Shown: positions 62 to 34,535 of the stretch, in pieces | Layout of the letters: every line of letters starts with the position of its first letter | Numbering within the stretch: position 1 is the first letter of the stretch | Assembly: GCA_004020545.1 (NCBI GenBank) | Contig: SAQE01000026.1 | Span: forward strand, 44,955 to 79,788 | Reading direction: 5' to 3' | Origin: Mesorhizobium sp. | GTDB lineage: Bacteria; Pseudomonadota; Alphaproteobacteria; Rhizobiales; Rhizobiaceae | Length of the DNA stretch: 34,834 nucleotides | Translations under genes and position numbers: made by a program | Notes under the pieces: model-generated | The model's database searches: none | What the model saw: only the letters and a program-made list of their open reading frames with translations | Told to the model about the DNA's origin: nothing

Positions 62-247
62 TCACCCTCGCAATTTCCTGGCTTCGCGCTCGAGCGTCTT
101 GCGGTCATTGCCATGCTCGCTGATCAGCTCTCGAACCTGCTCGGACGAGATGCGATGCTGCTTGGCGAAGTAGCGAACCTCGTAGTCCTCATCCGCTGAG
201 ACTCGGTCGCGATCCCGGAAATCCCGCTTCGTCTTGTCGTCTGTCAT
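62..247 (-). CDS. DUF3606 family protein
   Basis: A 61-residue protein with the DUF3606 pattern: a charged N-terminus, then VRYFAKQHRISSEQVRELI and the closing HGNDR..LEREARKLRG. The fold is thought to be a small helical module; its biochemical role is unknown, although members often belong to stress regulons. The ATG at 247 is chosen because AGGAGG lies a few bases upstream; a longer in-frame extension has no such site and would run through the promoter. An EcfG-type promoter (GGAAC-N16-GCTT, 270-294) ends 22 nt before the start. A related protein follows upstream on the same strand (298-474), with its own promoter, and further relatives lie at 20849 and 32671. Confidence 0.85.
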   Translation of the reverse strand: MTDDKTKRDFRDRDRVSADEDYEVRYFAKQHRISSEQVRELISEHGNDRKTLEREARKLRG

Positions 248-269
248 GCCGGCTTCCTCCTGGGAGGGA

Positions 270-294
270 AAGCAGGATTGCACCGTAAGGTTCC
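270..294 (-). promoter_or_regulatory. EcfG-like promoter
   Basis: On the minus strand, GGAAC (290-294), a 16-nt spacer and GCTT (270-273). It lies 22 nt upstream of the DUF3606 start at 247. The -35 box is perfect; the -10 box keeps the TT of the cgTT consensus. Confidence 0.6.
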
Positions 295-297
295 GGT

Positions 298-474
298 TCA
301 ACGTTTGGCGTGCTTGCCGCGTTTCCTTCTCGGCTTGAGACTGGCGCTGTAGGCGGTCTCTATGATCCGCAGCACCTCGTCGCGGGTTATGCCGCACTTT
401 CGGGCATAGTATTCGGCTTCGGCAAGTCGTTCTTCCGAAACGCCTTCGGTGACCAGCTTCGCTCCCTTGTTCAT
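298..474 (-). CDS. small DUF3606-like protein
   Basis: A 58-residue basic protein. The core AEYYARKCGITRDEVLRIIE resembles the DUF3606 core and is close to the core of the protein at 32671-32877 (VYFARKCGLTPDEALWMM). The C-terminus is a run of Lys/Arg (KPRRKRGKHAKR) that could contact nucleic acid. The ATG at 474 is chosen over a longer reading frame starting at 603, because an EcfG-type promoter (505-530) lies between the two. No strong Shine-Dalgarno is visible. The function is unknown; stress induction is inferred from the promoter. Confidence 0.65.
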   Translation of the reverse strand: MNKGAKLVTEGVSEERLAEAEYYARKCGITRDEVLRIIETAYSASLKPRRKRGKHAKR

Positions 475-504
475 CTGACTTCGTCCATTGAAAACCGAAC
501 TGAC

Positions 505-530
505 AACAAATTCGCAGCGCTCTTTGTTCC
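505..530 (-). promoter_or_regulatory. EcfG-like promoter
   Basis: Minus strand: GGAAC (526-530), 17-nt spacer, TGTT (505-508). The -10 ends 30 nt before the start of the small protein at 474. Confidence 0.55.
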
Positions 531-673
531 AGCACTTGCTAATGGAACGGAGAGCGTTTCGCGCTATTTGATTGCTGTGCGCAGCTTCGAAAGCGACCGC
601 CACAACTCGTCTTCGATCGGTGAAGCCATTTCAGACCTCAGTCGCACTTCCATAGCGACCGTAGACTCATCCC

Positions 674-698
674 GGAACGTTCGCTCTAAACGCCCGTT
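674..698 (+). promoter_or_regulatory. EcfG promoter, full consensus
   Basis: GGAAC (674-678), 16-nt spacer, CGTT (695-698): a perfect match to the alphaproteobacterial general-stress promoter. It lies 29 nt upstream of the 35-residue membrane protein at 728. Confidence 0.75.
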
Positions 699-727
699 TG
701 CTTGAAGGTCCAGAAGGAGCGAAGGCC

Positions 728-1176: not shown

Positions 1177-1501
1177 ACCTGGCAGCGGCATCTCCAAGCA
1201 GCCCGGCCTGCAAGACTGGCGTTTCTGGCGGGGCAGGCCGGGCAACCGCTCCGGCCGTTGAGTATGCCGATTGGAGGGCAACCGAAGCCCGCCAAGACTG
1301 TTCCCTTATCGACAGGCCTGCAATGCGACCGAAGTCCGATACCCGGTCGCATTGGTCTCAGTCGCGAAACTATTAGTCGCGGTATCTCATTGTGAGCGGG
1401 ATCGACGAGAATGGTCCCTTCGTCGTCGGTTGGACGGATGCCCGCCATTTCCTGCGATGTGGCGGGCATCCATCACAACACAAACGGGGTGAGGCAGGGC
1501 A
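1177..1501. other. intergenic stretch with two inverted repeats
   Basis: I see no credible gene here. It holds a perfect 11-bp inverted repeat (1201-1211 with 1233-1243, 21-nt loop), which may end the DUF1236 transcript although no T-run follows. It also holds a perfect 12-bp stem-loop at 1436-1471, listed separately. Confidence 0.5.
1436..1471. repeat. 12-bp perfect stem-loop
   Basis: GGATGCCCGCCA (1436-1447) pairs perfectly with 1460-1471 across a 12-nt loop. There is no T-run. It ends 30 nt before the zinc-ribbon gene, so it could be part of that gene's leader or a dispersed palindromic element. Confidence 0.55.
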
Positions 1502-7222: not shown

Positions 7223-7247
7223 GGAACAACTGGGTCTCGTTACGGTT
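7223..7247 (+). promoter_or_regulatory. EcfG-like promoter
   Basis: GGAAC (7223-7227), 16-nt spacer, GGTT (7244-7247), 35 nt upstream of the YdeP-type gene. The same GGTT -10 recurs at 11504, 13128, 23254 and 23519. Confidence 0.6.
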
Positions 7248-10331: not shown

Positions 10332-10356
10332 AACGCCCCGCTGTGCAGCTCGTTCC
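10332..10356 (-). promoter_or_regulatory. EcfG promoter, full consensus
   Basis: Minus strand: GGAAC (10352-10356), 16-nt spacer, CGTT (10332-10335). It points to the hydrolase gene, 85 nt before its start. Confidence 0.65.
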
Positions 10357-10399: not shown

Positions 10400-11431
10400 A
10401 TGGAGACTTCCCGGATTTCGTCCCGAGCAGTGGCGTCGAACGACAGCCTTCCACTGTCTCTGGACACGCCGCCGATGGAGGCCCGAACCGCGGATGCGCT
10501 GCCCGAAGGTCCCTGGCAGTACGAACCGAAATGGGACGGGTTCCGCTGCCTGGTGTTCAAGGGCAACAAAACCGTCGAGCTTCGCGCCAAATCCGGCAAG
10601 CCGCTCGGCCGCTATTTTCCCGAATTGACAACGATGCTGCGCAATCTCGCTGCAAGGCAATTCGTCGTGGACGGCGAGATCGTAATCGAGATCGATGGGC
10701 GCGCTTCCTTCGACACGCTGCAGATGCGTCTTCACCCGGCCGAGAGCCGGATCCGCAAGCTGAGCGTGGAGACGCCGGCGCGGTTGGTCCTGTTCGATGC
10801 ACTGGTCGCCCCGGGAGGCGAGATTTTGCTCGAAATGCCCCTGGCCGATCGACGTCGGGTGATTGATGACTTCGTTGCCAAGGCAAAGAATGATGCACTA
10901 AGGCTCTCGCCTGCTACTATGAGCCTCGCGACCGCGAGACGATGGTTGCGTGGCTCCGGCCAAGGTGCCACCGATGGGGTCATCGCCAAAGCGCTGGCCG
11001 AACCCTACCGGCCGGGCGAGCGCGCGATGATCAAGATCAAGCGGCTGCGCACAGCCGATTGTGTGGTCGGCGGCTTCCGCTACCTGAACGGCCAGCGCCA
11101 GGTCGGCTCGCTGCTACTTGGGCTCTACAACGAGCGCGGCGAGCTCGATCACGTCGGCTTCACCTCGACCATCGCCAATGACGAGCGGGCGGCACTCACT
11201 AAAAAGCTCGAGGTGTCGCGCGGCGGACCCGGCTTCACCGGCAAGGCGCCGGGTGGCCCGAGCCGCTGGAGCACCGAGCGCAGCGCAAAATGGGAGCCGG
11301 TGCGGCCAGAAATGGTCGTGGAGGTCCGCTTCGATCATGTGACCGGTGATCGCTTCCGGCACGGAACAACGCTGGTGCGTTGGCGGCCCGACAAGTCCCC
11401 ACGTCAATGCACGTTCGAACAGATCGCATAG
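10400..11431 (+). CDS. ATP-dependent DNA ligase (LigC-type, stand-alone)
   Basis: A 343-residue ligase. Motif I YEPKWDGFR has the adenylated lysine K44; motif III is VVDGEIV (about 89-95), motif IV is DGVIAK, motif V is MIKIKRLR. The C-terminal OB-fold carries RPEMVVEVRFDH and TLVRWRPDK. The protein lacks the polymerase (PrimPol) and phosphoesterase domains of LigD and has the length of LigC. It seals nicks and breaks, and the neighbouring Ku gene suggests a role in non-homologous end joining. The ATG at 10400 has no good ribosome site; an ATG at 10472 is possible. Confidence 0.88.
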   Translation: METSRISSRAVASNDSLPLSLDTPPMEARTADALPEGPWQYEPKWDGFRCLVFKGNKTVELRAKSGKPLGRYFPELTTMLRNLAARQFVVDGEIVIEIDGRASFDTLQMRLHPAESRIRKLSVETPARLVLFDALVAPGGEILLEMPLADRRRVIDDFVAKAKNDALRLSPATMSLATARRWLRGSGQGATDGVIAKALAEPYRPGERAMIKIKRLRTADCVVGGFRYLNGQRQVGSLLLGLYNERGELDHVGFTSTIANDERAALTKKLEVSRGGPGFTGKAPGGPSRWSTERSAKWEPVRPEMVVEVRFDHVTGDRFRHGTTLVRWRPDKSPRQCTFEQIA

Positions 11432-11482: not shown

Positions 11483-11507
11483 GGAACCACCGATCGCCTG
11501 AGCGGTT
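11483..11507 (+). promoter_or_regulatory. EcfG-like promoter
   Basis: GGAAC (11483-11487), 16-nt spacer, GGTT (11504-11507); 51 nt upstream of the acidic protein. Confidence 0.55.
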
Positions 11508-12901: not shown

Positions 12902-12926
12902 AATAGTGAGCCGCCACTTTTGTTCC
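12902..12926 (-). promoter_or_regulatory. EcfG-like promoter for the Ku operon
   Basis: Minus strand: GGAAC (12922-12926), 16-nt spacer, TATT (12902-12905). It precedes the proline-rich protein and ku. Confidence 0.5.
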
Positions 12927-13106
12927 ATGCGGCGGGTCGCCTTATTCGACAACGGGCTAAAGCGGGTTGAGTGAGACCCCAGATCGCCGGAGGGAAAGCG
13001 ATCCGGCACCGAACCGCGAGGCGGGCCAAAAGTTCCGACAGTTGGCGAAGAGTTGCGCCAAAAACTTTGGCGGCCCCGAAGCCTTCAACTCGCCGCCTGG
13101 ATTGAA

Positions 13107-13131
13107 GGAACCAACGGCTGTCCCGTTGGTT
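13107..13131 (+). promoter_or_regulatory. EcfG-like promoter with internal palindrome
   Basis: GGAAC (13107-13111), 16-nt spacer, GGTT (13128-13131), 26 nt before the ThDP enzyme. The spacer contains an inverted repeat, CCAACGG (13111-13117) with CCGTTGG (13123-13129), which could bind a dimeric regulator. Confidence 0.6.
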
Positions 13132-19654: not shown

Positions 19655-19679
19655 AAGCTGGCCCAATCTGAAAGGTTCC
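19655..19679 (-). promoter_or_regulatory. EcfG-like promoter
   Basis: Minus strand: GGAAC (19675-19679), 16-nt spacer, GCTT (19655-19658), the same boxes as at 270-294. Confidence 0.5.
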
Positions 19680-19770: not shown

Positions 19771-19795
19771 GGAACAGCAAGGTCGGACAGATGTT
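19771..19795 (+). promoter_or_regulatory. EcfG-like promoter
   Basis: GGAAC (19771-19775), 16-nt spacer, TGTT (19792-19795), 21 nt before the tail-anchored protein. Confidence 0.6.
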
Positions 19796-20390: not shown

Positions 20391-20415
20391 GGAACGACGG
20401 CCCGCCGGCCAAGTT
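20391..20415 (+). promoter_or_regulatory. EcfG-like promoter
   Basis: GGAAC (20391-20395), 16-nt spacer, AGTT (20412-20415), 13 nt before an ATG at 20429 that opens the degenerate small gene. Confidence 0.35.
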
Positions 20416-22094: not shown

Positions 22095-23240
22095 TCATTC
22101 TTCCAGGAGATGTCCTAAAGGCCGGAGAGGCCGTAGCCGATCGGAAACGATTTTCAGGATGGCCAACAGTGGGAATGCCAAGAGCGCTCCGGGTGCCCCC
22201 CACATCCAAAACCAGAATATCAACGACAATACGACAAGCGCAGGATTTAAGGTGAAGCGGCGCGCCAGAAGGAAGGGAGTGAGCGTCTCGCCCTCGATAA
22301 GGTGGATCACAAAGTAGAGGACCGGCAGAAGTAATGCCCACCACAGGCTGTCGAACGTGAGCAATCCGGCCAACAGAAATATACCGACCCCCAGCAAGGG
22401 ACCGAGAATTGGAACGAAGTTGAGCAAGAATGCCATCGTGCCCCAGAGCAATACATCGTGAAGCCCGCACGCATACATCACTCCGGCGGTGGCGACGCCC
22501 ACTGCGGCATTCATAATGGTTATCGTCAGTAAATAGACGGATATGTCGCTTTCGATTTCCTGGAAAATTTCAACGGCCTGCCGCTTGTCGGCGAAAGTCG
22601 GAAGTATTTCGACGATGCGCCGGAGGAAGGTGTCTCCCGACAGCAAAAGAAAATAAAGAACAAGGACCGTCGTGATCAATCCGTCCAGAACGGCCTTTGT
22701 GCCCGCAAATAATGCTCCGGCAATACCGAGGTCGCTGCGTACCGCCACCGTCGTACGCCCTTGCGGGGGTGCGTTTGCGATTTCCTCGGCGACTTCGAGG
22801 GCCCCCTGCAACTTGTGCATGGGGCCGCTCAGCACCATCAAATGCTCTTCCAGCCTCGGCACGCCTTGTGGCAGCTTTTGAGCCCATGTCGCTACGGGCG
22901 CGGACAAGGCGGCCACCAGACCGACCAAGATTCCGACCACCAGGACGATCGGTAAGATCGCTCCCAAGGCCCTGGGCACAAAGAAGCGTTCCAGTAGGCT
23001 GACGGCGGGCTGCAGGAGCAATTTGAGGAAGACGGCAAGCACGAGCGGTAGCACTATGGCACTCGCAGCAAAGGCGGCGCCAAGAATTGCCAGGACGAAG
23101 AGACCTCCTGTGAAGAAGGTCACGACGCGCAATCGAGCCGCCAGCCGACTTTTGCCTGTTTGCAAAATGGGCTCAACCGTTTCCACGGGAGCCGGCGATG
23201 ATCGTTCGAACTCAGAGCGTCCGTTATGCATAGAAGTCAT
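22095..23240 (-). CDS. AI-2E family transporter (PerM-like permease)
   Basis: A 381-residue membrane protein of the PerM/TqsA (AI-2 exporter) family. There are two or three helices at the N-terminus, a soluble segment (about 125-190), then the typical C-terminal helix block with VLYFLLLSGDTFLRRI, YLLTITIMNAAVGVATAGVM, LLNFVPILGPLLGVGI and LTPFLLARRFTLNPALVVLS. The cargo is unknown. The ATG at 23240 is chosen because an EcfG-type promoter (23254-23278) excludes the longer frame; an ATG at 23231 is equally possible. It lies upstream of ku2 on the same strand. Confidence 0.88.
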   Translation of the reverse strand: MTSMHNGRSEFERSSPAPVETVEPILQTGKSRLAARLRVVTFFTGGLFVLAILGAAFAASAIVLPLVLAVFLKLLLQPAVSLLERFFVPRALGAILPIVLVVGILVGLVAALSAPVATWAQKLPQGVPRLEEHLMVLSGPMHKLQGALEVAEEIANAPPQGRTTVAVRSDLGIAGALFAGTKAVLDGLITTVLVLYFLLLSGDTFLRRIVEILPTFADKRQAVEIFQEIESDISVYLLTITIMNAAVGVATAGVMYACGLHDVLLWGTMAFLLNFVPILGPLLGVGIFLLAGLLTFDSLWWALLLPVLYFVIHLIEGETLTPFLLARRFTLNPALVVLSLIFWFWMWGAPGALLAFPLLAILKIVSDRLRPLRPLGHLLEE

Positions 23241-23253
23241 TGTCCGCGTACTC

Positions 23254-23278
23254 AACCGCGAAGCGGCGCTGATGTTCC
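23254..23278 (-). promoter_or_regulatory. EcfG-like promoter
   Basis: Minus strand: GGAAC (23274-23278), 16-nt spacer, GGTT (23254-23257), directly before the permease. Confidence 0.6.
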
Positions 23279-23497: not shown

Positions 23498-23522
23498 GGA
23501 ACATCCGACCGATGTTCTGGTT
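23498..23522 (+). promoter_or_regulatory. EcfG-like promoter
   Basis: GGAAC (23498-23502), 16-nt spacer, GGTT (23519-23522). The next well-supported gene is DUF3309, 191 nt downstream, so there is a long leader or an unseen small RNA or gene. Confidence 0.5.
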
Positions 23523-23880: not shown

Positions 23881-24921
23881 TCATTTTTGATCACGCATGC
23901 CCGGTCTCGTGACCTCTGACGAAACAAGAGCACTGTGATTCCTTCGGCGCTCCTGCATGCCATAAATCGGTACTGCGTTAATTTCGCGTGGAACCGCACC
24001 GCTGCCGATTTTCTTCACAGCGGACGATCCGCTCCCGATCCAAAAGGCTGCCAGGATCAATGCGGCTGCCAAGTAGAATGCGCTGGCACCTACCCACATG
24101 ATCAAGCCACCAAGCTGCTGGTCTTCAAGCGCTGACAGGCCCCATTGCGCCGCTACCGAGTTCCTCGTGACGAATATCTCATTTTTCGACAGAGCCAAAA
24201 TAGCGCCTAGCAACCCACAATGCATGGAGGTGAAGAACAGATAGAAAACCGACGCTCCGTAGCTCTTCCGGCGCGTGCGGCTACTGAGCAAAGCCCACCA
24301 GAAGAGCAGTGCGGTTGCCAGGAAGCTGACATGCTGCAGCCAATGGACTGGCTCCCGTGCCAACGCCGCGCTGAACAGGACCGGCATGTGCCATGACCAG
24401 ATCGCGAAGCCGTGAAGGACTGTCGCGGAAGCAGGCTCGGTCAGGCCTCGCCATGTCACCCGCACAATCGGCCATCGCACCGTCCCTGCAATGTGCCGCC
24501 GTATGGCGCGCGGAAACGACCACAACATGGCGCCGAGCGGTCGCGACAGGACAAGTGCGGGAGCCGCTGCGATCATCAACACCTCGTGCTCGATCATATG
24601 AGCCGTGAAGAGCCGGTCGCCCAATTCATGCAGCGGTGACAGAAGGGCCGCGACAAGCAGTGCCCACCCCGCCGCGAAGCTGCCTGGTTGCCACAAAGCG
24701 ACGCCGCGCCCCACCCCTGCCTGTCGCCATAGCCGCGCCATGCCGGCGGCGTAGAGGAGCACCGCAAGGTCTAGCGGGATGAGGATCGCGCCGGGGAGAG
24801 ACCGGCCGCCAGATTCTTGATCCGCTCCATGCGCTGTGAGGGCCGGCGCCAGCACCATGCACGAGCCGAAAAATAGCACGCCAAGCAATCGCGTCCCGCC
24901 AATGGAAGGCACGACCCACAT
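23881..24921 (-). CDS. ctaG: CtaG-type cytochrome c oxidase assembly protein
   Basis: A 346-residue membrane protein of the caa3-type CtaG family (COG3336). It has seven or more helices, with conserved histidines in LSPLHELGDRLFTAHMIEHE, WHMPVLFSAAL, WLQHVSFLATALLFWWAL and FTSMHCGLLGAILAL, thought to assist copper-site assembly of the oxidase. Its ATG (24921) overlaps the stop of subunit III (TGATG), so translation is coupled; a TTG at 24939 is also in frame. It is the last gene of the oxidase operon. The C-terminal 50 residues are polar and poorly conserved in style. Confidence 0.85.
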   Translation of the reverse strand: MWVVPSIGGTRLLGVLFFGSCMVLAPALTAHGADQESGGRSLPGAILIPLDLAVLLYAAGMARLWRQAGVGRGVALWQPGSFAAGWALLVAALLSPLHELGDRLFTAHMIEHEVLMIAAAPALVLSRPLGAMLWSFPRAIRRHIAGTVRWPIVRVTWRGLTEPASATVLHGFAIWSWHMPVLFSAALAREPVHWLQHVSFLATALLFWWALLSSRTRRKSYGASVFYLFFTSMHCGLLGAILALSKNEIFVTRNSVAAQWGLSALEDQQLGGLIMWVGASAFYLAAALILAAFWIGSGSSAVKKIGSGAVPREINAVPIYGMQERRRNHSALVSSEVTRPGMRDQK

Positions 24922-25517
24922 CAGAGCCTCGGCAGCCAATAGAGCACCGCGTAAAGCGGCAACCAGGACAGCACGACGAAATACCAGTAGAACGCGTTGT
25001 CCTCGGCATCGCTGAAGCGTTTACCCGTCCCATGTCGAGTAAACATCAGCACAGTCAGGACAAGCGTATCGGCAACGTCGGTCAGCACATGAACGCCATG
25101 CAGACCGAGCAGGAGCCAGATGAAGGAGCCGTACGCATTGTCGCTCCAGCGTACCGGAAGGGCCGAAAATTCCATGATGCGCAAGACGATAAGCACCAGA
25201 CCGACCGAGCTCATGGCCAGCAGCAGCAGGCGAACCGAGCGCAAATTCTCCTGCAATGCCGCTCGCTTTATCAGGAAATTCGGTATCGCGCTGGCGACCA
25301 GGACGAGCGTAAACGCTGCGGACCAGACCAGGTTCAAGGGAACCGCATCCTTCGCCCAATGGGTGTTGGTGACGGCCAGGTAGAGATAGCCGCCGATGCC
25401 AAGGGCGAAGCCAGTTCCCTCCAGCAGGCAGAACGAAAAGGTGCCCCACCAAGGCGTGACACGCGAGCCGAAGGCATAGGTCGGTAAACCGGAGACATCG
25501 ATGACGCTGCGGGCCAT
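24921..25517 (-). CDS. ctaE: cytochrome c oxidase subunit III
   Basis: A 198-residue subunit III with five membrane helices, the short form found in caa3-type oxidases, where helices 1-2 are fused to subunit I. Visible blocks are WWGTFSFCLLEGTGFALGIG, LLLGLHGVHVLTDV (HGxHV is the family motif) and NAFYWYFVVLSWLPLYAVLY. It stabilises subunit I in the inner membrane. The ATG follows the stop of ctaD directly, and GAGGAG lies in the end of that gene. It overlaps ctaG by one base. Confidence 0.88.
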   Translation of the reverse strand: MARSVIDVSGLPTYAFGSRVTPWWGTFSFCLLEGTGFALGIGGYLYLAVTNTHWAKDAVPLNLVWSAAFTLVLVASAIPNFLIKRAALQENLRSVRLLLLAMSSVGLVLIVLRIMEFSALPVRWSDNAYGSFIWLLLGLHGVHVLTDVADTLVLTVLMFTRHGTGKRFSDAEDNAFYWYFVVLSWLPLYAVLYWLPRL

Positions 25518-27431
25518 CTAGGCGTTCTCCTCAGTGGTTTTCGGCCAGAACCAGGCGACGAGCAAAATGGCGACGACAGGCGATCCCCAGGTGATCGCCC
25601 ATGGCGTGTAGATCGAACCGATGAAGGCGACGGCGGTGGCGAATGCCGCCAGAAAGGGCCAAATCGACGGCGCTGGCGATTCCTCTCGAATGTCGGGCCG
25701 CGCCTCGGTGATGCTCGTCACGACAAGCTCGCGCTCATCGACCTTAAGGCCACTGACCACCGGCGTGTCGTCGCCTTGGCTCCATAGCGGCGACCCGCTG
25801 GTGACAAAGGGAATGCGGTCGAAATTCTGTGGCTGGGGCGGCGAGCTGGTCGCCCATTCCAACGTATCGGCATCCCAGGGATTGTCGCCGGAAGGGGGGC
25901 CTGAGCGAGCGCTGATGACCATGTTGTAGAGCATCAGCAGGAAGCTTGCGAAGAAAAACAGCGCACCGGCGCTGGCGAGCAGGTTGAGCCCGCCCCAGCC
26001 CATCTCCGCGGGATAGGTGTAAACCCTGCGCGGCATGCCATAGAGGCCCAGCAGGTGCATCGGAAAGAAGGCGGTGTTGAAGCCTATGAAGGCAAGGGCG
26101 AACTGCCATTTGCCGATCTGCTCGTCCATCAGCCGGCCCGTCACTTTTGGGAACCAGTAGTAGACCGCCGCCACAAGCGGAAAGACAGTGCCGCCTATCA
26201 GCACGTAATGAAAATGGGCAACCACGAAATAGGTGTCGTGCGTCTGCGTATCGATGGGCACCGAGGCCAGCATGACGCCCGAAAGCCCGCCGGCGACAAA
26301 GATGAAGAAGAAACCGAGCACGAAGATCAGCGGCGCCTTGAGCACCGGCTTGCCGTCCCAGAGCGTCGCGATCCAGCAGAATATCTGGACTCCATTCGGA
26401 ATCGCGATCGCCATGCTGGAGGCGGTGAAGAATGCAGCGCCCACCTCAGGCAGGCCGGTCACGAACATGTGGTGAACCCAAAGGCCAAAGGAAAGAAAGC
26501 CGATCGCAATCAGCGACAGCACCATCGGCAGATAGCCGAAGACCGGCCGTCGGGAGAATGTCGCCACGATCGCAGACACGAAAGCGGTTCCGGGCAGGAA
26601 GATTATGTAGACCTCAGGATGGCCGAAGAACCAGAAAAGGTGCTGCCAAAGCAGCGGATCTCCGCCTGCATCAGCATTGAAAAACTGGGTGCTGACCAGC
26701 CGATCCATGATCAGCATCGATGAGGCGAGCATGACCGCCGGCATGGCAAAGATGATGATGAAAGAATGGACCAACATGGTCCATACGAAGAGTGGGATGC
26801 GGTCAAGCGTCATGCCCGGTGCGCGCTGCTTCAGGACTGTGACGATGATCTCCACCGACACCGCGAGGGCAGCAACCTCTGTGAAAGTGATCATCTGAGC
26901 CCAATAGTCGGGCCCCTTGCCTGGAGTGAAATCCAAGTTTGCGAGGGGCACATAGGAGAACCAACCCACGTCCGGGCGAATGCTCAGCGCGAAACCGCCC
27001 CATAACATTAGGCCGCCGAACAGATAGACGTAGTAGGAGAAGGCGTTGAGGCGCGGAAAGGCGATGTTGCGCGTGCCGACCATGAGCGGCACCAGATAGA
27101 TGGCGAACGCCTCACCGACCGGCACCCCGAACAGGAACATCATCGTGGTGCCATGCATGGTGAAGAGCTGGTTGTAGAGTTCGGCGCCGACGAGATGACT
27201 GTCTGGCCGCGCGAGCTGCAGCCGCATGATGATCGCCAGGACACCCCCCGCCAACAAGAAGATGAAGGCGGTCACGGCATAGCGTATCCCGATGACCTTA
27301 TGATCGACCGTCGAGAGAACGCCGATCAAGCCGCCCGTCGTGCCCCAGGTCTTGCTCAGTCGTGCGCGTAGTTCTTCGTCGCCAAGATCGCTGTCGCGCG
27401 TTTCGTGACGCTCTTCTATCACAGGGCTCAT
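25518..27431 (-). CDS. ctaD: cytochrome c oxidase subunit I
   Basis: A 637-residue heme-copper oxidase subunit I of about 14 helices; the last two correspond to helices of subunit III in other oxidases. The heme and copper ligands are present: MHGTTMMF (low-spin heme), WFFGHPEVYII (CuB His, the Glu and the cross-linked Tyr), VHHMF (CuB), HDTYFVVAHFHYVL (both hemes). It reduces O2 with electrons from cytochrome c. Unusual: the D-channel Asp is Asn (GTRNIAFPRLN, canonical DMAFPRMN) and the K-channel Lys is Gln (NGVQIFCW, canonical GIKIFSW). It overlaps the stop of subunit II by 4 nt (ATGA). Confidence 0.93.
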   Translation of the reverse strand: MSPVIEERHETRDSDLGDEELRARLSKTWGTTGGLIGVLSTVDHKVIGIRYAVTAFIFLLAGGVLAIIMRLQLARPDSHLVGAELYNQLFTMHGTTMMFLFGVPVGEAFAIYLVPLMVGTRNIAFPRLNAFSYYVYLFGGLMLWGGFALSIRPDVGWFSYVPLANLDFTPGKGPDYWAQMITFTEVAALAVSVEIIVTVLKQRAPGMTLDRIPLFVWTMLVHSFIIIFAMPAVMLASSMLIMDRLVSTQFFNADAGGDPLLWQHLFWFFGHPEVYIIFLPGTAFVSAIVATFSRRPVFGYLPMVLSLIAIGFLSFGLWVHHMFVTGLPEVGAAFFTASSMAIAIPNGVQIFCWIATLWDGKPVLKAPLIFVLGFFFIFVAGGLSGVMLASVPIDTQTHDTYFVVAHFHYVLIGGTVFPLVAAVYYWFPKVTGRLMDEQIGKWQFALAFIGFNTAFFPMHLLGLYGMPRRVYTYPAEMGWGGLNLLASAGALFFFASFLLMLYNMVISARSGPPSGDNPWDADTLEWATSSPPQPQNFDRIPFVTSGSPLWSQGDDTPVVSGLKVDERELVVTSITEARPDIREESPAPSIWPFLAAFATAVAFIGSIYTPWAITWGSPVVAILLVAWFWPKTTEENA

Positions 27432-28237
27432 TGCGAGCTCTCCAATAAAGCGGAGGTGAAGACGCGTTGCTTTCTGAGATAAGCCGTCGGCTTCGCCGGC
27501 GCGGCTTGATCGGCGCGCCAGCGTTCGAATTCATGCGGCTCCAGCGCCACGACGAAGATCGCCATGTGAGCATGCTGCTGGCCACAGAATTCGGCGCACT
27601 GACCGCGATATACGCCGGGCTTGCTCGCTTCGATGCGCAGCTCGTTCCTTTTGCCAGGAATGAGATCGAGCTTGCCGGCGAGGCTTGGTATCCAGAACGA
27701 ATGGATGACATCCGCCGTGGTGAGCTTGATTTCGACCGGGCTGCCGACCGGAATGCGGATCTCGTTGGCCGTCTCGAAACCGTTCTCTCCTTCATAGCGG
27801 ACCTGCCACCACCACTGGTGCCCTATGACCGAGATTGTCAGCGCGGCACCGGCGCCGCTCCCGAAAATCGTTCTTTGTCCGCCGAAGCTGAGCACGGCCA
27901 AGCCCGATAGAACGATGGCGCTCGACGCGAGCATCGCGGCAAAGGCGATAAGCATCGGTCGTTTGACGGCTGGACGCGCCTCTGCGGATTCGCCGCGACC
28001 GTCTCGCCGGCGGGTTAGCGCGAGGAGCAGGCCCGCCATTGTGACGAGCCAGACAAGTCCGAGCACTGCCGTGAAGGTCCAGAACAGAGCAGCCAGCGTA
28101 TCGGCCTGCTCGCTATGGGGATCGAGGGCCGACTGCACGCCTGCACAGCCCGAGAGGAGAGAAGAGCCGGTAAGCAGAAGATCAGCCGACGGCGCCCAAA
28201 CCCTTTTTTCGGGACGGCTGGGAAGCAGAGGGAACAC
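27428..28237 (-). CDS. ctaC: cytochrome c oxidase subunit II, signal region possibly frameshifted
   Basis: A 269-residue subunit II from a GTG at 28237: lipobox LLSGC, two helices, VIGHQWWWQVRYE, then the cupredoxin domain with VIHSFWIPS and the CuA site GQCAEFCGQQHAHM. It lacks the cytochrome c tail of caa3 enzymes. In the other frame, ATG 28242 with GGAGAG 8 nt upstream reads MPCSLCFPAVPKKGFGRRRL then IFCLPALL, a better signal peptide. One added base near 28152-28167 would join it to LSGCAGVQSALD. So either the GTG form is used or the N-terminus is frameshifted. It is the first gene of the oxidase operon. Confidence 0.8.
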   Translation of the reverse strand: MFPLLPSRPEKRVWAPSADLLLTGSSLLSGCAGVQSALDPHSEQADTLAALFWTFTAVLGLVWLVTMAGLLLALTRRRDGRGESAEARPAVKRPMLIAFAAMLASSAIVLSGLAVLSFGGQRTIFGSGAGAALTISVIGHQWWWQVRYEGENGFETANEIRIPVGSPVEIKLTTADVIHSFWIPSLAGKLDLIPGKRNELRIEASKPGVYRGQCAEFCGQQHAHMAIFVVALEPHEFERWRADQAAPAKPTAYLRKQRVFTSALLESSQ

Positions 28238-28244
28238 GGCATCC

Positions 28245-28270
28245 GGAACTCTCCGATCTCGTTCGTTGTT
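28245..28270 (+). promoter_or_regulatory. EcfG-like promoter
   Basis: GGAAC (28245-28249), 17-nt spacer, TGTT (28267-28270), 33 nt upstream of the 38-residue gene at 28304. It overlaps the promoter zone of the divergent oxidase operon. Confidence 0.5.
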
Positions 28271-28303
28271 GTTGTGTTCATCCGGTGCCAAGGAGGCGGA
28301 GCA

Positions 28304-28420
28304 GTGAGTCTTAAACGCGACACCAGGATTTTCGGCGAGCCAGGATTCTACGTCGCGACGCTCCTCACCTTGTGTCTTATTGGGGGCGTTCTTCTGTTTT
28401 GCGGTATTTTCGCGCCATAA
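28304..28420 (+). CDS. 38-residue single-helix membrane protein
   Basis: AAGGAGG (28290-28296) stands 7 nt before a GTG at 28304. The peptide VSLKRDTRIFGEPGFYVATL continues LTLCLIGGVLLFCGIFAP: a basic N-terminus and one membrane helix. The ribosome site and the EcfG-type promoter support it. It is divergent from the oxidase operon, so a role as a small accessory subunit of a membrane complex can be imagined but is not shown. No family is recognised. Confidence 0.6.
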   Translation: MSLKRDTRIFGEPGFYVATLLTLCLIGGVLLFCGIFAP

Positions 28421-28652
28421 ATGCGCCAGCGAACGCCGGGGGCAGTCAACCCCGAAATTTTGCATCTCGTGAGCCGGCCGGAAGTCCATTCAGCGTGGTC
28501 GCCTGCGGGAGGATGCCTCAGTCCTTGTCCGCTTTACACGGCCCGACTGTGCCCTGTTTGAACTGACAAGGAGAGAGAAAGTTCCTTGAGCCGGTAGCGC
28601 AACATTTGCCCTCCCTGCCTTGGCGGAGGTTCTGCGAAACCCTCGATGGGGT
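28421..28652. other. short gap
   Basis: Nothing is recognised between the tiny gene and the end of the triheme cytochrome gene. Confidence 0.4.
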
Positions 28653-29816
28653 TCATTGCGGGCCTTCAGATCGCTTGGAGAAATAGGCCGATACCGCTCG
28701 TATATCGTCGTCCGTGAGGCGTTGGGCGGCGGTCGCCATGATACGCCAGAACTGCGTGCCACCTCGGTTCTCGGACCGGAACAGCTTCAGTTGCCGTTCG
28801 AGATATGCGGCATGCTGACCATCAAGGTGCGGATAGATCGGATTCTTGTCGGAACCGATATGGCAGCCGGAACAGGCAGGCACGTTCCGTTCTGGAATGC
28901 CGATTTCTGCGATTTGCTGTCCCTTATTGACCATCTCCGCCGGAACTTGATCGCGGTCGGCTGATAAAGGCCGTTGCGCCGCAAAATGCCGGGCAAGCGC
29001 AGCCAGGTCGGCTGGGTCGACCCCGGTCACCGGCAGAGCCATGAAGCCGCTCGTGCGATCACCGCTGGCAAAGGCGTGGAGGCTGGCGAATAGGTAAGCT
29101 TGTTTCTGTCCGGCGAGCGCAGGCACCAGATCGCCCCTGCCCTGGCCGTCGCTTCCATGACAGCGCCTGCAGTCGGCGAGTGCCGCTGGAGCGGCTGGTT
29201 CCCTCTCGCCGCCGGTTGCCTGGCCGGCATCGAAGGCAAGTGCCCGAAACTCGTTCGCGTCGAGTTTCGGAAGTTCCCGCAGGAAGGCAACCATCGCCCA
29301 AACCTCGTCGTCGCGGTCGCGGGCCGGCCAAGCTGGCATTCCCGTGAAACGTATTCCATGCTTGACGATCCGAAACAGCTGAGCGTCGGTCCAGTCTCCG
29401 ACTGTCAGCGCAAGGTTCGGTGGTTGCGGAAGCATGCGCATCACCGCCGGCGAGCGTGGCTCGCCTGGTTCGCCGTGGCAGATCGCGCAACCCCGCGCAA
29501 AATGCCCAGCTGCCGCCGGGAGCCCCCGCCGGTCGAGAGTTTTCGGAGCGTCGACCGCCAAAGCATAAGTGCGCACAGCCGAGCGCATGGCAAGCTGAAG
29601 GAACAAGGCCGTCACCTTCCAATGGCCGCTGCTGGCACCAACGTTGAAAAAGCCGATCCACGCTCCGAGCAACACAATCACAGGCAAACCGACAGCGCCG
29701 AAGACGACATGCTTCAGGCGGATCATTATCGGCTGGTCTTTCACCCGGTTAATCGCATCTTTTTCGTCGGAAGCACTTGACGGCTTGGGCGAGCGACGGA
29801 CGCGAGAACCGGGCAT
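28653..29816 (-). CDS. membrane-anchored triheme cytochrome c
   Basis: A 387-residue protein. One N-terminal helix (about 36-57, HVVFGAVGLPVIVLLGAWIG) anchors it, with the rest in the periplasm. Three heme-c sites are present: CAICH (110-114), CRRCH (216-220), CSGCH (315-319). It is likely an electron carrier to or from a membrane enzyme such as the neighbouring oxidase. The ATG at 29816 overlaps the stop of the preceding cytochrome gene (TGATG), so the pair is translationally coupled; an ATG at 29726 just before the helix is possible. The last two domains resemble class I cytochromes of the c553/c4 type. Confidence 0.85.
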   Translation of the reverse strand: MPGSRVRRSPKPSSASDEKDAINRVKDQPIMIRLKHVVFGAVGLPVIVLLGAWIGFFNVGASSGHWKVTALFLQLAMRSAVRTYALAVDAPKTLDRRGLPAAAGHFARGCAICHGEPGEPRSPAVMRMLPQPPNLALTVGDWTDAQLFRIVKHGIRFTGMPAWPARDRDDEVWAMVAFLRELPKLDANEFRALAFDAGQATGGEREPAAPAALADCRRCHGSDGQGRGDLVPALAGQKQAYLFASLHAFASGDRTSGFMALPVTGVDPADLAALARHFAAQRPLSADRDQVPAEMVNKGQQIAEIGIPERNVPACSGCHIGSDKNPIYPHLDGQHAAYLERQLKLFRSENRGGTQFWRIMATAAQRLTDDDIRAVSAYFSKRSEGPQ

Positions 29817-30274
29817 CACTGTAAAGCTTTCAGATATCGCGCGATCGTCTGAATTTCAGTTTGCGGAAGCATATCGAATGCCGGCATCTTCACGCCCGGC
29901 TTCTGCAGATCGGGCCGAGCGATGAAACGCGCAATGGCTTCCTCGCTATTCGGTAGAATGCCGGCACCGATCGCCGTTCGCGACCCGATGTGGGACAGGT
30001 CCGGGCCTATCGTGCCGCGTGCCTCGGTCCCTCTTATGGTGTGGCATGCGCCGCAACCGTTGCGCAGGAACAGCGATAGCCCCGTGCCCGGCGGGTCTTG
30101 AGGCGCAGCTGGGTCTTCGAGTTGCGGCGCAATCAGAGCTGCCGGCGCGATCGAAGGTTCGATGACCTTCGCCCGTTGATGGCCGAGTTCCTCAGCTGCG
30201 GCCCAGTTGCTGCCCTTGGCGAGAAGCAAAAATGCACAGCCCACCAGAACGGAAAGGCCGACGTTTGCGGACAT
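29816..30274 (-). CDS. monoheme cytochrome c
   Basis: A 152-residue exported protein. It has a signal peptide or anchor (2-27, ending WAAAEEL), a Pro/Ala linker and one class I cytochrome domain with CGACH (74-78), GTIGPDLSHIGSR and the Met ligand in VKMPAF (M130). This domain closely resembles the cytochrome c tail that caa3 oxidases carry on subunit II. The local subunit II lacks such a tail, so this protein may be the detached equivalent. GGGAGC precedes the ATG, and an EcfG-type promoter (30295-30320) lies 20 nt upstream. Confidence 0.87.
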   Translation of the reverse strand: MSANVGLSVLVGCAFLLLAKGSNWAAAEELGHQRAKVIEPSIAPAALIAPQLEDPAAPQDPPGTGLSLFLRNGCGACHTIRGTEARGTIGPDLSHIGSRTAIGAGILPNSEEAIARFIARPDLQKPGVKMPAFDMLPQTEIQTIARYLKALQ

Positions 30275-30294: not shown

Positions 30295-30320
30295 AACTTG
30301 GCAGGGATGGGCGAGGTTCC
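30295..30320 (-). promoter_or_regulatory. EcfG-like promoter
   Basis: Minus strand: GGAAC (30316-30320), 17-nt spacer, AGTT (30295-30298), directly before the cytochrome c operon. Confidence 0.5.
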
Positions 30321-31016: not shown

Positions 31017-31041
31017 GGAACCGCCACAGCCCGGCTCGCTT
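31017..31041 (+). promoter_or_regulatory. EcfG-like promoter
   Basis: GGAAC (31017-31021), 16-nt spacer, GCTT (31038-31041). The next gene starts 153 nt further on. Confidence 0.4.
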
Positions 31042-32281: not shown

Positions 32282-32306
32282 GGAACCTCCGAGCAGCGGG
32301 GCCGTT
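32282..32306 (+). promoter_or_regulatory. EcfG promoter, full consensus
   Basis: GGAAC (32282-32286), 16-nt spacer, CGTT (32303-32306), 33 nt before the CsbD gene. Confidence 0.75.
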
Positions 32307-32339: not shown

Positions 32340-32543
32340 ATGGATTGGAATCGCGTCGAAGGAAACTGGAAGCAGATCAAGGGCAAGGTCAAGGAACAGT
32401 GGGGCAAGCTCACCGACGATGACCTCGACCGCATCGCCGGCAAGCGCGACCAGCTGGAAGGGAAGATCCAGGAACGTTACGGCATCGAGAAGGATCGTGT
32501 GCGCCGCGACGTCGACGACTGGGCGCGCCGCCAGGGGTGGTAG
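32340..32543 (+). CDS. CsbD family stress protein
   Basis: A 67-residue protein that is a complete CsbD domain: MDWNRVEGNWKQIKGKVKEQ, then WGKLTDDDLDRIAGKRDQLE and GKIQERYGIEKD. CsbD-like proteins are small, hydrophilic and helical, and are classic members of general stress regulons in both Bacillus (SigB) and alphaproteobacteria (EcfG). The mechanism is unknown. AAGGAG lies 9 nt before the ATG, and a perfect EcfG promoter stands upstream. The frame is open further upstream, but the promoter and the ribosome site fix this start. Confidence 0.93.
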   Translation: MDWNRVEGNWKQIKGKVKEQWGKLTDDDLDRIAGKRDQLEGKIQERYGIEKDRVRRDVDDWARRQGW

Positions 32544-32670
32544 CATCCGCCGTCCGAATGAACGACGCCGCAGCCCTCGAAGCAGGGCTACGGCATCAAG
32601 CGAGGGATTTGAGCGGCCGAACAATGGTGACATTATTAGCCGACTAGGTCATTCGTGGTCCGGTGAACCG

Positions 32671-32877
32671 ATGGCCAAAAAGAAGTCGAGACCCCCCTTG
32701 TCCGCCATAGCGACAGCCTCACGATCGGAGGCTTCCGAGGCAGTCTATTTTGCGCGTAAATGCGGTCTCACTCCTGATGAGGCGCTATGGATGATGCGCC
32801 AGGCGCAGAGGCGTCAGGGCGTAAGGCTCGGGGAAACCGGAACCGCTGAACGGCGCGCGCGGCGAAGCGCACCGTGA
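32671..32877 (+). CDS. small DUF3606-like protein
   Basis: A 68-residue basic protein. The core SEAVYFARKCGLTPDEALWM is close to the core of the protein at 298-474 (AEYYARKCGITRDEVLRI), and both end in a basic tail (here RRARRSAP). GGTGA lies 5-6 nt before the ATG. No own EcfG-type promoter is seen; it may be read from the CsbD promoter, since only 127 nt separate the genes, although a 6-bp hairpin (32572-32589) lies between them. The function is unknown. Confidence 0.6.
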   Translation: MAKKKSRPPLSAIATASRSEASEAVYFARKCGLTPDEALWMMRQAQRRQGVRLGETGTAERRARRSAP

Positions 32878-33216
32878 TGAAACGGATTCAGCCGACACGC
32901 CTTGGCTCAGGCCCGGCCGAACATATTCACCTATCGTCGCTTCATCGATCTCGACGGCAAACATCACACTCCTGGCCATCCTCAGTTGGGAGGGCGCATC
33001 GAAAAGTCCGCCGCTGATTGCCGCCTGCTCTCAGCCGGAGTGTTTCGCCGCCAGCTTTCCTGCCAAATCGAAAAAATAAGCGAAGACCGGCAGGACCGCC
33101 TTGCACCGATTGTGCGCCAATATGCCTCGAGGTTCGGTTGGGAATTGCTTTGGACGAAGACCGAAGCGGCCCGGCGTTTCGAGCAACTCCAGACAACCAA
33201 GCTCCTGGCGAGATTG
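32878..33216. other. gap with an uncertain frame
   Basis: A plus frame from a TTG at 32902 has natural-looking composition (EKISEDRQDRLAPIVRQYAS) but continues as the antisense of the strong gene at 33217. There is no ribosome site. I do not call it. Confidence 0.35.
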
Positions 33217-34137
33217 TCAGCCGCGAATGAACTGCGCTTCGTTTTCGTCGCGCTGGTTGCCGCCGAGTACTGCCGCGACGCTTGCGATAAAGGCGCCCAC
33301 GATCATAGACAGGGCGCCGACCAGCGCAAAGGTGGCGCTCGCCTTCCTGGCCGTATCGGCGGCTGCCTTCGCCTTGTTCTTGGCATCTTCCATGCTGGCG
33401 AGGACGGTGTCGACACGCTTCGCTGCATCGGCCTGCGCAAGCCCGGTGCGGGAAGCGACAAGCTTCGCAAGATAGGCCTTGTCGTCGGCCGACACTTCGC
33501 CTCTAGCGGCGCTCGCTACCAGGATGCGAGATGCCTGCGCGGTCGAGCCGGCATCGTTCTGTCCAGGCGGAGCGACTGCTCCGGTGTCGGCCGGACGGAA
33601 CAGTGCATCGACGAAATAGGCCAGGCCGTTGCCTTCGGCCGTGCCGCTCGCTGCATTCGTGGCTGCAGACGTGGCGCCCGCCGCCACGCCCGATGCGACG
33701 TTGGACGCTGCCTGCACCCCCGCACCGATCGTTGCGGATAAAGCGGTACCGAAGACGCCCGCAACCAGCAGTGTTGCCAGCGCCCAGGCAAGGAAGCCGT
33801 GCGCCGTATCGCGGAAGTAGACTTCGTCGCCATGAATGTCGACCCATTTTGTGCGCAGGCGGCCGGTAAGATAGCCACCTAGGCCGGCCGAGAGCCATTG
33901 TACGATGACCAGCCAAACCGCGGCTGAAACCGCGAAAGTGGTGATCGACGCACTTGCACCGGTCCAGGGTGAAACCATGGTGAGCCCCAGTCCGGAACCG
34001 ACTAGCATGAGAATAACCGTGAGCGTCGATGCAGCGAGAGCACCCGCAATGATCGGGCCCCAGCTTACGGCGGATGATGAAGACTCCCTTGCGCCGGATG
34101 CGCCGGAAACTTCAACGTCAGTAACTTTGGAGTTCAT
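33217..34137 (-). CDS. four-helix membrane protein, rhizobial type
   Basis: A 306-residue protein. Helices lie at about 26-52 (WGPIIAGALAASTLTVILML), 65-90, 110-133 (AHGFLAWALATLLVAGVFGT) and 270-295 (ALVGALSMIVGAFIASVAAV), with an Ala/Ser-rich and a charged periplasmic or cytoplasmic segment between helices 3 and 4. This architecture (SWGxIxAGAxxA at the start, GG..TGRLR after helix 2) is common in uncharacterised Rhizobiales proteins, often stress-linked. TAGGAG lies 7-8 nt before the ATG. The 25-residue gene ends 9 nt upstream, so they form an operon under the EcfG-type promoter at 34257. Confidence 0.8.
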   Translation of the reverse strand: MNSKVTDVEVSGASGARESSSSAVSWGPIIAGALAASTLTVILMLVGSGLGLTMVSPWTGASASITTFAVSAAVWLVIVQWLSAGLGGYLTGRLRTKWVDIHGDEVYFRDTAHGFLAWALATLLVAGVFGTALSATIGAGVQAASNVASGVAAGATSAATNAASGTAEGNGLAYFVDALFRPADTGAVAPPGQNDAGSTAQASRILVASAARGEVSADDKAYLAKLVASRTGLAQADAAKRVDTVLASMEDAKNKAKAAADTARKASATFALVGALSMIVGAFIASVAAVLGGNQRDENEAQFIRG

Positions 34138-34146
34138 CTGACGCTC

Positions 34147-34224
34147 CTACCGTGCGAACAGCATGAGCAGAATGATGATCGGAATTGGAACTCCGAGCAG
34201 CCAAAGTAATATACCGCGTCCCAT
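34147..34224 (-). CDS. 25-residue hydrophobic membrane peptide
   Basis: GGAGG lies 5 nt before an ATG at 34224 that opens MGRGILLWLLGVPIPIIILL then MLFAR and a stop. Similar peptides (GRGxxLWLLGxPxPIIIL) are widespread in Proteobacteria, mostly unannotated because of their length. The peptide has one membrane helix with a Pro-x-Pro kink. The ribosome site, the EcfG-type promoter 32 nt upstream and the position 9 nt before the four-helix protein gene all support it. The function is unknown. Confidence 0.75.
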   Translation of the reverse strand: MGRGILLWLLGVPIPIIILLMLFAR

Positions 34225-34256
34225 GGAGACCTCCTATATTCTTGAGACGAAATACC

Positions 34257-34281
34257 AATTCCGCGAACCGGCTTTCGTTCC
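34257..34281 (-). promoter_or_regulatory. EcfG-like promoter
   Basis: Minus strand: GGAAC (34277-34281), 16-nt spacer, AATT (34257-34260), 32 nt before the 25-residue gene. Confidence 0.5.
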
Positions 34282-34535
34282 AAATATCCAGTGAGCAAAA
34301 TTGGAAATTGACAGGCCCGATTTATTTTCCGATCTGGTGCGCGCCCAACGGTTTTGCTTCCTCGCTCCTGGCTAGGAAGCGCGGCCGATCGGATGCCAAT
34401 ATGCGGTGCCCTGACGGTCGGTACCGAAGGACCAAACTTCAAAGCGGCGTATTAGTTCCATCTTAAAGACGACGGGCGGCTGTAGTGACAACTCGGCCCC
34501 GCCTGCAGTCCTGCGGCTGCTTATCCCTCGGCTGA
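34282..34535. other. gap with an orphan promoter
   Basis: No gene is recognised. The stretch contains the minus-strand EcfG-like site at 34435-34459, which has no clear gene before the next promoter. Confidence 0.4.
34435..34459 (-). promoter_or_regulatory. EcfG-like promoter, orphan
   Basis: Minus strand: GGAAC (34455-34459), 16-nt spacer, AGTT (34435-34438). The first start codon with a good ribosome site is at 34224, behind another promoter. Confidence 0.35.

Follow-up and report, generated by a model that had tools for sequence, protein, structure and literature searches.

We analyzed a 34,834-nucleotide stretch of the genome of a Mesorhizobium sp. (G000:C107:44955-79788). It forms the right-hand end of a contig of 79.8 kb; the whole assembly is 7.0 Mb in 188 contigs. 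(By "the window" we mean this whole stretch.) The window is very probably the right-hand part of a Mesorhizobium general-stress island, in which about 20 real promoters for ECF15 sigma factors (approximately GGAACAWW-N13-nGTT) precede accessory stress units. These units encode proteins for DNA end joining, CsbD, DUF3606, a thiamine diphosphate (ThDP) enzyme, YdeP, a permease, an extra cytochrome oxidase, and many small unfamiliar proteins. During stress, PhyR would titrate NepR, and the EcfG sigma factor that is released from NepR would fire the island promoters together; this mechanism is established for the family.

A sequence-only reading of the window had listed 21 promoter-like sites with a GGAAC -35 box and a TT-ending -10 box, and had proposed that an EcfG regulon ties the named genes into one response. 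The sequence supports such a regulon, but the "one response" may be a second, accessory tier, because most of the -10 boxes depart from the canonical CGTT. Alignments to relatives confirmed a kept site at ku1, CsbD, the ThDP enzyme, YdeP, the AI-2E family permease, and the cytochrome operon (from one locus only for the permease, CsbD, and the cytochromes). The claim for Ku holds for ku1 but not for ku2, which is truncated and lacks a properly spaced site of its own. The link to DUF3606 is indirect: its site could not be aligned, and a closed relative has a GGTT site at about the same distance, roughly 25 nt before the orthologue. Not all 21 sites stand as promoters, as a few are probably chance matches. 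In the titles and the first parts of the abstracts of papers on EcfG or the general stress response together with Mesorhizobium, genomic islands, or EcfG2, we found no such island.

Density and conservation of the motif

We searched both strands for GGAAC followed by TT at a gap of 18 or 19 (a spacer of 16 or 17 nt plus two bases). All 21 listed sites were recovered, each with a perfect GGAAC, and nine more sites in the window fit the pattern (544, 4853, 9493, 18248, 19087, 23990 and, on the minus strand, 1304, 13036, and 28585). The resulting 30 unique starts compare with 5.9 ± 2.4 in 100 dinucleotide shuffles of the window (maximum 12) and with 9.0 ± 2.3 for other pairs of gaps in the same window (maximum 14), so the earlier estimate of six to nine sites by chance was about right. 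Across gaps, there is a sharp peak only at 18 (24 matches) and 19 (15 matches), with around 5 matches at other gaps.

As a genome-wide search pattern, GGAACN{18,19}TT is useless: it has 1104 matches in 6.99 Mb, and a control gap of N{24,25} has 1079, so most of the raw matches must be due to chance. Even so, the window has 39 matches (counting both gaps) where 5.5 would be expected from the genome-wide rate, a sevenfold excess. The sequence-only reading had proposed comparing the window to the rest of the genome, and the density in the window turned out to be far above the background: 8.6 versus 1.4 sites per 10 kb (background median 1.0, maximum 5.0). Between genes, the density was 23.7 versus 2.8 per 10 kb, while control gaps in the window gave 4.3-6.5. 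The background was 51 stretches (1.02 Mb) that were spread over the contigs by hand, not at random, and that leave out contigs C107 and C147 and the starts of C88 and C119, which had been chosen by motif. (The intergenic densities rely on gene calls from a home-made hexamer caller, which shortened some starts.)

In an unbiased scan, we paired every pentamer that occurs 30 or more times with TT at gaps of 10 to 29. The top combination in the window was GGAAC with a gap of 18 (24 matches against a median of 5; z = 8.5), and it also led in 28 Mesorhizobium loci around the ThDP gene (413 matches against a median of 69.5; z = 41), although several of these loci are near-duplicates. (The closest protein matches of the window's ThDP enzyme are from Mesorhizobium.) The same combination was not among the eight strongest printed for 50 of our background stretches or for 13 outgroup loci from distant or non-alphaproteobacterial hosts, which were chosen by hand and which have a flat gap profile. 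In the 28 Mesorhizobium loci, TGAAC has no peak at gap 18. The motif in those loci extends beyond the core, with A after GGAAC (60%), then two A/T-rich places, and preferences for C, G, and G after the -10 box.

To see how the sites are conserved, we aligned each window site, with 60 nt upstream and 200 nt downstream, to 100 loci: 80 homologue loci and 20 from the closed chromosome of a relative, G001. At least one relative could be aligned for 18 of the 21 listed sites, and 17 of them keep the motif in most of the aligned loci (this count includes 28245, which is inside cox2). Site 19655 is poorly kept (3/9), and sites 270, 505, and 674 have no alignment. Among the unlisted sites, 13036 on the minus strand is kept in 8/8 loci and 28585 in 1/1, while 9493, 18248, 19087, and 23990 are together kept in 1/36. 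When all 30 sites are taken together, whether N16 or N17, the columns of GGAAC and of the four -10 bases are 82-99% identical, versus 40-76% for 12 of the 16 spacer columns.

As another approach, we asked if orthologues of the window's genes have any site within 220 nt upstream, and compared this to two control gaps. Sites precede 58 of 77 ThDP orthologues (control gaps, 0 and 1 of 77), 22 of 23 Ku matches in 14 loci (2 and 8 of 23), and 18 of 18 orthologues of orf18116 (0 and 14 of 18). Sites also precede orf19817 (17/17), YdeP (4/4), and DUF6894 (6/6). For CsbD, the count (6/6) is uninformative because the control gaps match 6 and 5 of 6. No upstream site was found at orthologues of PCMT (0/19), cox1 (0/10), or cox3 (0/11). 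Overall, the promoters are conserved before orthologues, as expected for an ECF15/EcfG (RpoE2) regulon. They also have its motif in front of genes, with a GGAAC -35 and, 16-17 nt on, a -10 that resembles (C)GTT, except that the first base of the -10 box deviates.

Several observations weigh against an island of conserved GGAAC promoters. For ten of the kept sites, a single locus could be aligned; L054 and L190-L209, which make up the G001 part of the set, are one genome; and three listed sites at the left end (270, 505, and 674) cannot be aligned. The contrast between boxes and spacers is in part modest, because the 20 bases upstream of the sites are 53-85% identical. In the orthologue test, at least one control gap was also frequent for CsbD (6/6), Ku (8/23), and orf18116 (14/18), and only 1 of 9 isochorismatase orthologues have a site. 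For LigD, 7 of 15 orthologues have a site upstream, and there is none on its strand in the window. The -35 box may be looser than GGAAC, as a peak at gap 18 is also seen for CGAAC in the 28 Mesorhizobium loci (227 matches); GGAAA rises slightly in the window (11 and 11) and not in the 28 loci. Finally, the corresponding zone of G001 is uneven, with mostly 0-4 sites per 10 kb from 3.09 to 3.19 Mb.

Regulators and extent of the island

The genome has PhyR, NepR, and EcfG in one locus, as expected for an ECF15/EcfG regulon. With the profile PF18557, there is a single NepR match genome-wide at E ≤ 0.001 (C147:9230-9334), which is over the Pfam cut-off but under the NCBIfam cut-off for NepR. (We had considered PF20239 as a marker for EcfG, but this was wrong, as PF20239 is DUF6596.) Beside NepR is an ECF sigma factor gene (C147 8654-9205, minus strand), which we call EcfG1; it was assigned by its position and by a generic sigma-factor model. 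The divergent gene encodes PhyR (9628-10422, plus strand; NCBIfam PRK09191, 385.5 bits, with a cut-off of 240). Both of the divergent phyR and nepR-ecfG promoters have motif sites, at 9504 (minus strand) and 9539 (plus strand).

There is also a second EcfG-like gene (EcfG2; 50% identical over 145 residues), which in this genome lies apart from the island contig, on a 9.9-kb contig (C13) with 6.1 sites per 10 kb. More broadly, 15 stretches of the genome match the EcfG query, so it has several ECF genes. Two of these ECF sigma-like matches, at C118:51503-52006 and C146:36809-37270, have one in-frame TGA each. EcfG2 has matches at E ≤ 1e-43 in 42 of the 50 genomes that we searched. For most Mesorhizobium, the identity of the best copy is 74-91%; it is 50-66% in three genomes named as Mesorhizobium (L077, L079, and L082) and in the other genera, and EcfG2 is absent in L086.

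The island extends beyond the window. Of the 67 occurrences of the stricter pattern GGAAC-N16-GGTT in the genome, 11 are within C107:32407-68476, so the stress island starts about 12.5 kb before the window's left edge and, at its other side, runs off the contig. In other words, the proposed regulon island at 62..34459 was borne out as an island but not in its extent: the window holds only part of it, and the contig ends within it. The G+C content of C107 is about 60%, versus 62-65% in most of the other stretches that we first sampled.

The closed chromosome G001 (Mesorhizobium sp. M1B.F.Ca.ET.045.04.1.1, NZ_CP034448.1), to which locus L054 also belongs, has homologues of most of the window's genes, reordered, within about 300 kb (3.02-3.31 Mb). 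These include the ThDP enzyme at 3.306 Mb, YdeP at 3.31 Mb, the cox cluster at 3.284-3.291 Mb, CsbD at 3.038 Mb, and DUF3606 at 3.021 Mb, and an EcfG2 orthologue (90% identical) is at 3.274 Mb. In G001, sites become denser from 3.00 Mb onwards (up to 15 per 10 kb), thin out at 3.09-3.19 Mb, and climb back to 14 per 10 kb at 3.30 Mb; between 3.32 and 3.37 Mb, the density is 0-1. The GNAT and LuxR genes of the window have no match in G001.

In other Mesorhizobium loci, the units with sites include what we take to be, from their printed sequences, catalase-, Nramp-, DUF4142-, receiver-, and CheB-like proteins. A confirmed ECF sigma gene is also among these units. At the left end of contig C11 (L039:2838-8871), there is a second dense group of sites at a contig end, with open reading frames (ORFs) that are presumably ligase- and DUF3606-like, and this group may also belong to the window's island. 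The EcfG2 subgroup has been described as plasmid-borne (PMC3892343). When we searched plasmids with positions 10200-20200 of the window, we obtained 63 records, none of which covers most of the query, and all of which are 60-80% identical.

Individual sites and genes of the window

Sites and selected genes are listed in Table 1. The sequence-only reading had placed the sites between genes, which is true for most of them, but 28245 is inside cox2, and 23498 and 31017 overlap weak, doubtful ORFs. Its statement that most sites end 20-35 nt before a start codon was generous: with the start codons that we chose, this is so for 8 of the 21, and 12 of the 21 are at 13-35 nt. It had also noted no site in the GNAT/LuxR cassette, where we found one match (4853), inside the GNAT gene. 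The in-gene sites 9493, 18248, and 23990 are kept in 0 of 28 aligned loci and 19087 is kept in 1 of 8, while 544, 1304 (minus strand), and 4853 have no alignment to relatives. Sites 4853, 9493, 18248, 19087, 23990, and 28245 are likely to be due to chance.

Table 1. Motif sites in the window, followed by selected genes. N17 marks a 17-nt spacer; "kept" gives the aligned loci that retain the motif.
Feature	Position	Strand	-10 box	Context or annotation	Conservation
Site	270..294	-	GCTT	22 nt before DUF3606 gene 62-247	no alignment to relatives
Site	505..530	-	N17-TGTT	30 nt before small ORF 298-474	no alignment to relatives
Site	674..698	+	CGTT	178 nt before DUF1236 gene 877-1176	no alignment to relatives
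Site	1280..1304	-	GGTT	extra site, beyond the earlier list	no alignment to relatives
Site	7223..7247	+	GGTT	35 nt before ydeP-like molybdopterin oxidoreductase 7283-9583 (TIGR01701 over cut-off)	kept 3/4
Site	10332..10356	-	CGTT	85 nt before isochorismatase-family gene 9638-10246	kept 1/1; orthologues 1/9
Site	11483..11507	+	GGTT	51 nt before small ORF 11559-11840	kept 1/1; orthologues 2/2
Site	12902..12926	-	TATT	13 nt before small ORF 12697-12888 (upstream of ku1)	kept 2/2
Site	13012..13036	-	GGTT	second site upstream of the small ORF/ku1 unit; absent from the earlier list	kept 8/8
Site	13107..13131	+	GGTT	26 nt before ThDP (pyruvate-oxidase-like) enzyme 13158-14918	kept 29/30
Site	17195..17219	+	AATT	21 nt before broken start of small gene	kept 7/7
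Site	18677..18701	-	AGTT	135 nt before ORF 18116-18541 (141 aa; no Pfam family over cut-off)	kept 19/19
Site	19655..19679	-	GCTT	before DUF6894 gene 19145-19465; exact place doubtful	kept 3/9
Site	19771..19795	+	TGTT	21 nt before ORF 19817-20137	kept 15/15
Site	20391..20415	+	AGTT	13 nt before ORF 20429-20629	kept 2/3
Site	23254..23278	-	GGTT	13 nt before AI-2E family permease 22095-23240	kept 1/1
Site	23498..23522	+	GGTT	before small ORF 23538-23759	kept 1/1
Site	28245..28270	+	N17-TGTT	inside cox2, antisense; probably chance	counted among kept sites
Site	28561..28585	-	AGTT	71 nt before cox2; absent from the earlier list	kept 1/1
Site	30295..30320	-	N17-AGTT	20 nt before cytochrome c genes 30274-28653 and cox genes	kept 1/1
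Site	31017..31041	+	GCTT	153 nt before ORF 31195-31491	kept 1/1
Site	32282..32306	+	CGTT	33 nt before CsbD gene 32340-32543 (PF05532 8e-24)	kept 1/1
Site	34257..34281	-	AATT	119 nt before ORF 33217-34137	kept 6/6
Site	34435..34459	-	AGTT	upstream of site 34257..34281	kept 1/1
LigD-type ligase domain	10475..11431	+		ATP-dependent DNA ligase; NF006078 over cut-off	
ku1	11867..12658	-		NHEJ (non-homologous end joining) end-binding protein; TIGR02772 over cut-off	
ku2	21109..21909	-		N-terminally truncated by in-frame stop	
AI-2E family permease	22095..23240	-		PF01594 1e-43	
Respiratory cluster	23881..30274	-		cytochrome c / cox2-cox1-cox3-ctaG	

Several Ku-related stretches stand out. The frame of ku2 (21109-21960) can be followed upstream as far as an ATG that has a good ribosome site, but its codon 7 is a TAG; in a relative, this codon encodes tryptophan. 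Upstream of it, GGAAC and CGTT are 18 bases apart, which is one too many. ku2 is perhaps a decaying copy. Just left of the window, C107:40337-41230 also matches Ku, with 85% DNA identity to the Ku region of G001; the Ku of G001 (3.048 Mb) is closer to this copy than to ku1, to which it is 75% identical as a protein. Multiple ku and ligD genes are known from Rhizobium etli and Sinorhizobium meliloti (PMC10932983).

Two other features were seen along the way. At 17241-17285 is the start of a small gene, from a family of roughly 67-amino-acid proteins that is found in many relatives, which here has a TAG after 14 codons. At C107:40356-40382 (L036:356-382), divergent sites overlap so that one 27-bp stretch carries a site on each strand, which can happen because GTTCC is the reverse complement of GGAAC; such pairs recur. 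(Dupuy reportedly described stress-inducible Ku genes in Sinorhizobium meliloti in 2019.)

The first base of the -10 box and the choice of sigma factor

The island sites resemble those of the S. meliloti RpoE2 (ECF15) regulon, with GGAAC at -35 and a TT-ending -10 box at 16-17 nt (PMC6180224, PMC3616915). That regulon has 76 dependent genes with a mapped start and the motif (PMC3616915). Most RpoE2 targets are of unknown function, as are many in the island, and the ECF15 paralogue RpoE5 is a target (PMC6180224, PMC3616915). Unlike the island, the RpoE2 promoters in the available part of Table 1 of PMC6180224 have CGTT, or CATT for rpoE5, although this is a biased set that also responds to RpoE6; and the available parts of these papers report no packing of non-C sites on the scale of an island (PMC6180224, PMC3616915). 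Flexible boxes are known from Sphingopyxis granuli TFA, which has up to 14 different -10 boxes (PMC7083833). Five templates, including CGTT, TGTT, CATT, and GGTT, were transcribed in vitro with both of its EcfGs, which supports the varied boxes of the island as EcfG-type promoters. As far as the available text goes, S. granuli differs in that CGTT is its commonest box, its master regulator is the factor called EcfG2, and no genomic island is noted (PMC7083833). We infer that EcfG-type sigma factors would read the island sites, and the varied -10 boxes (mostly GGTT, AGTT, and TGTT) may mark an accessory tier that is read by EcfG1, EcfG2, or both.

The first base of the box (x, in GGAAC-N16-xGTT) differs between core and island promoters. 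The core stretch on C147 has C at 7 sites and no other base, while C107:20001-79788 has C5 G11 A5 T2. The ThDP loci are also mostly not C: C34 G127 A83 T75 in the 28 from Mesorhizobium, C0 G31 A10 T6 in six from Rhizobium, C2 G14 A0 T6 in five from Sinorhizobium, and C17 G5 A21 T5 in nine from clade-2 Mesorhizobium. To compare the two regulators directly, we chose 20 Mesorhizobium genomes from among those with a match to EcfG2 and took a 20-kb stretch around each of NepR and EcfG2 (one stretch per set was shorter). The NepR stretches have CGTT at 161 of 166 sites (C161 G2 A1 T2), versus C20 G31 A46 T6 for the EcfG2 stretches, and at N17 the counts are C24 G9 T2 and C2 G10 A2 T1, respectively. 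With N16 and N17 combined, the share of C is higher at NepR in 20 of the 20 genomes. These counts are mostly of orthologous promoters and are not independent events. After a crude collapse by similarity, which still splits some orthologues, C is the commonest base in 49 of 53 groups at NepR and in 10 of 58 at EcfG2 (29/30 and 5/18 for groups with at least two members).

One explanation is that EcfG1 alone reads all of the sites and that the non-C boxes are weaker or tuned accessory promoters. We consider this a serious contender, if not a probable one. Autoregulated core promoters would need strength, and in S. granuli, a change away from CGTT lowered the activity of one promoter while changes towards CGTT raised that of two others (PMC7083833). 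However, some non-consensus promoters of S. granuli outperform consensus ones (PMC7083833), and in five of the Rhizobium ThDP loci, C is found at 0 of 47 sites (G27 T11 A9), which goes beyond mere relaxation from a C consensus.

Alternatively, and more tentatively, the island promoters might chiefly be EcfG2's own regulon, with the GGAAC box kept and G, A, or T accepted at the first base of the -10 box, so that the core would have CGTT and the accessory promoters DGTT. This would account for the direction of the split in all 20 genomes. EcfG2 also tends to keep company with the island: in 17 of the 20 genomes, EcfG2 and the ThDP gene are on one contig (the exceptions are G007, the fetched copy of G013, and G033), as judged from EcfG2 and ThDP contigs of exactly equal size. 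The two genes are at most 38.1 kb apart in 16 genomes (in G031, by way of a second copy) and 82 kb apart in G027. The two sigma factors differ within region 2, in a part that contacts the -10 box: EcfG1 has GTNLKAWLFTILRNEF in 20 of 20 (GTNLKAW..RNEF), while EcfG2 has GTR[LM]KSWLFTIMRNT (R in 29, S in 30, and T in 30 of 30). The more distant second EcfGs of Rhizobium and Sinorhizobium retain KSW, but the R varies (S or K in several). R. etli has a similar arrangement, with one ecfG in the core locus next to nepR/phyR and another in accessory DNA (PMC3892343). There, each EcfG favours its own promoter, and the EcfG1 motif, GGAAC-N16-CGTT, is present in just 1 of 19 ecfG2-dependent units, but the phyR promoter is read by both factors (PMC3892343).

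Other results fit less well with a separate motif for EcfG2. Both S. granuli EcfGs transcribe all five templates, GGTT included (PMC7083833), and overexpression of S. meliloti RpoE5 gave one target (PMC6180224). The NepR stretches do include G and T at N17. Two short NepR loci from Rhizobium have C4 G2 A2 (two from Sinorhizobium have C at 4 of 4). Intergenic sites outside of the island in our genome have C9 A5 G1 (56 stretches), so AGTT is not confined to islands; GGTT seems to be. Also, six clade-2 Mesorhizobium ThDP loci are rich in C (30/56 for N16 and N17, or 13/34 for N16) despite having EcfG2, so the presence or absence of EcfG2 fails as a simple rule for the class of -10 box. In genomes with a single EcfG (L086, L122, L127, and L095), C is found at 11 of 26 xGTT sites, a mixed picture from few genomes, and L086 may merely lack EcfG2 in its assembly. 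On present evidence, reading by EcfG1 alone is about as likely as a tier that belongs to EcfG2.

It is very unlikely that another ECF sigma factor, such as one of the ECF26 group (RpoE6-like), drives the sites. The genome does have 15 matches to the EcfG query, and in S. meliloti the targets of RpoE6 and RpoE2 overlap (27/40; PMC6180224). But the consensus for ECF26 is GGAATA/GT (PMC6180224), and GGAAT has no gap peak in the window or in the 28 Mesorhizobium loci. Chance or base composition is refuted for the set of sites, if likely for a minority of single ones: in the window, GGAAC on its own is enriched 1.5-fold over shuffles (106 vs. 71), but this would not give a gap-specific peak, conservation with diverged spacers, and a flat profile in the 13 outgroup loci.

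If EcfG2 does own the island promoters, then rhizobia would have a two-tier stress response that is split by one base, with EcfG1 reading core GGAAC-N16-CGTT and the island-borne EcfG2 reading GGAAC-N16-DGTT. We offer this tentatively. The available text of the R. etli study reports that no motif was found for EcfG2 (PMC3892343), and DGTT is a testable candidate; also unlike R. etli, EcfG2 of G001 is within a chromosomal stress zone. The split in the -10 box between core and island promoters, together with the company of EcfG2, is the most useful extension of the original proposal, as it offers a one-base candidate code that can be tested directly, and it suggests a physical link between EcfG2 and many accessory stress genes. 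Whichever factor reads the sites, their distribution suggests that the NHEJ genes, CsbD, the ThDP enzyme, and the extra oxidase would be induced together, and it yields a list of small protein families of unrecognised role with conserved stress promoters. If the two-tier response is real, the island would be a sigma factor that is held together with its regulon while the surrounding units reshuffle.

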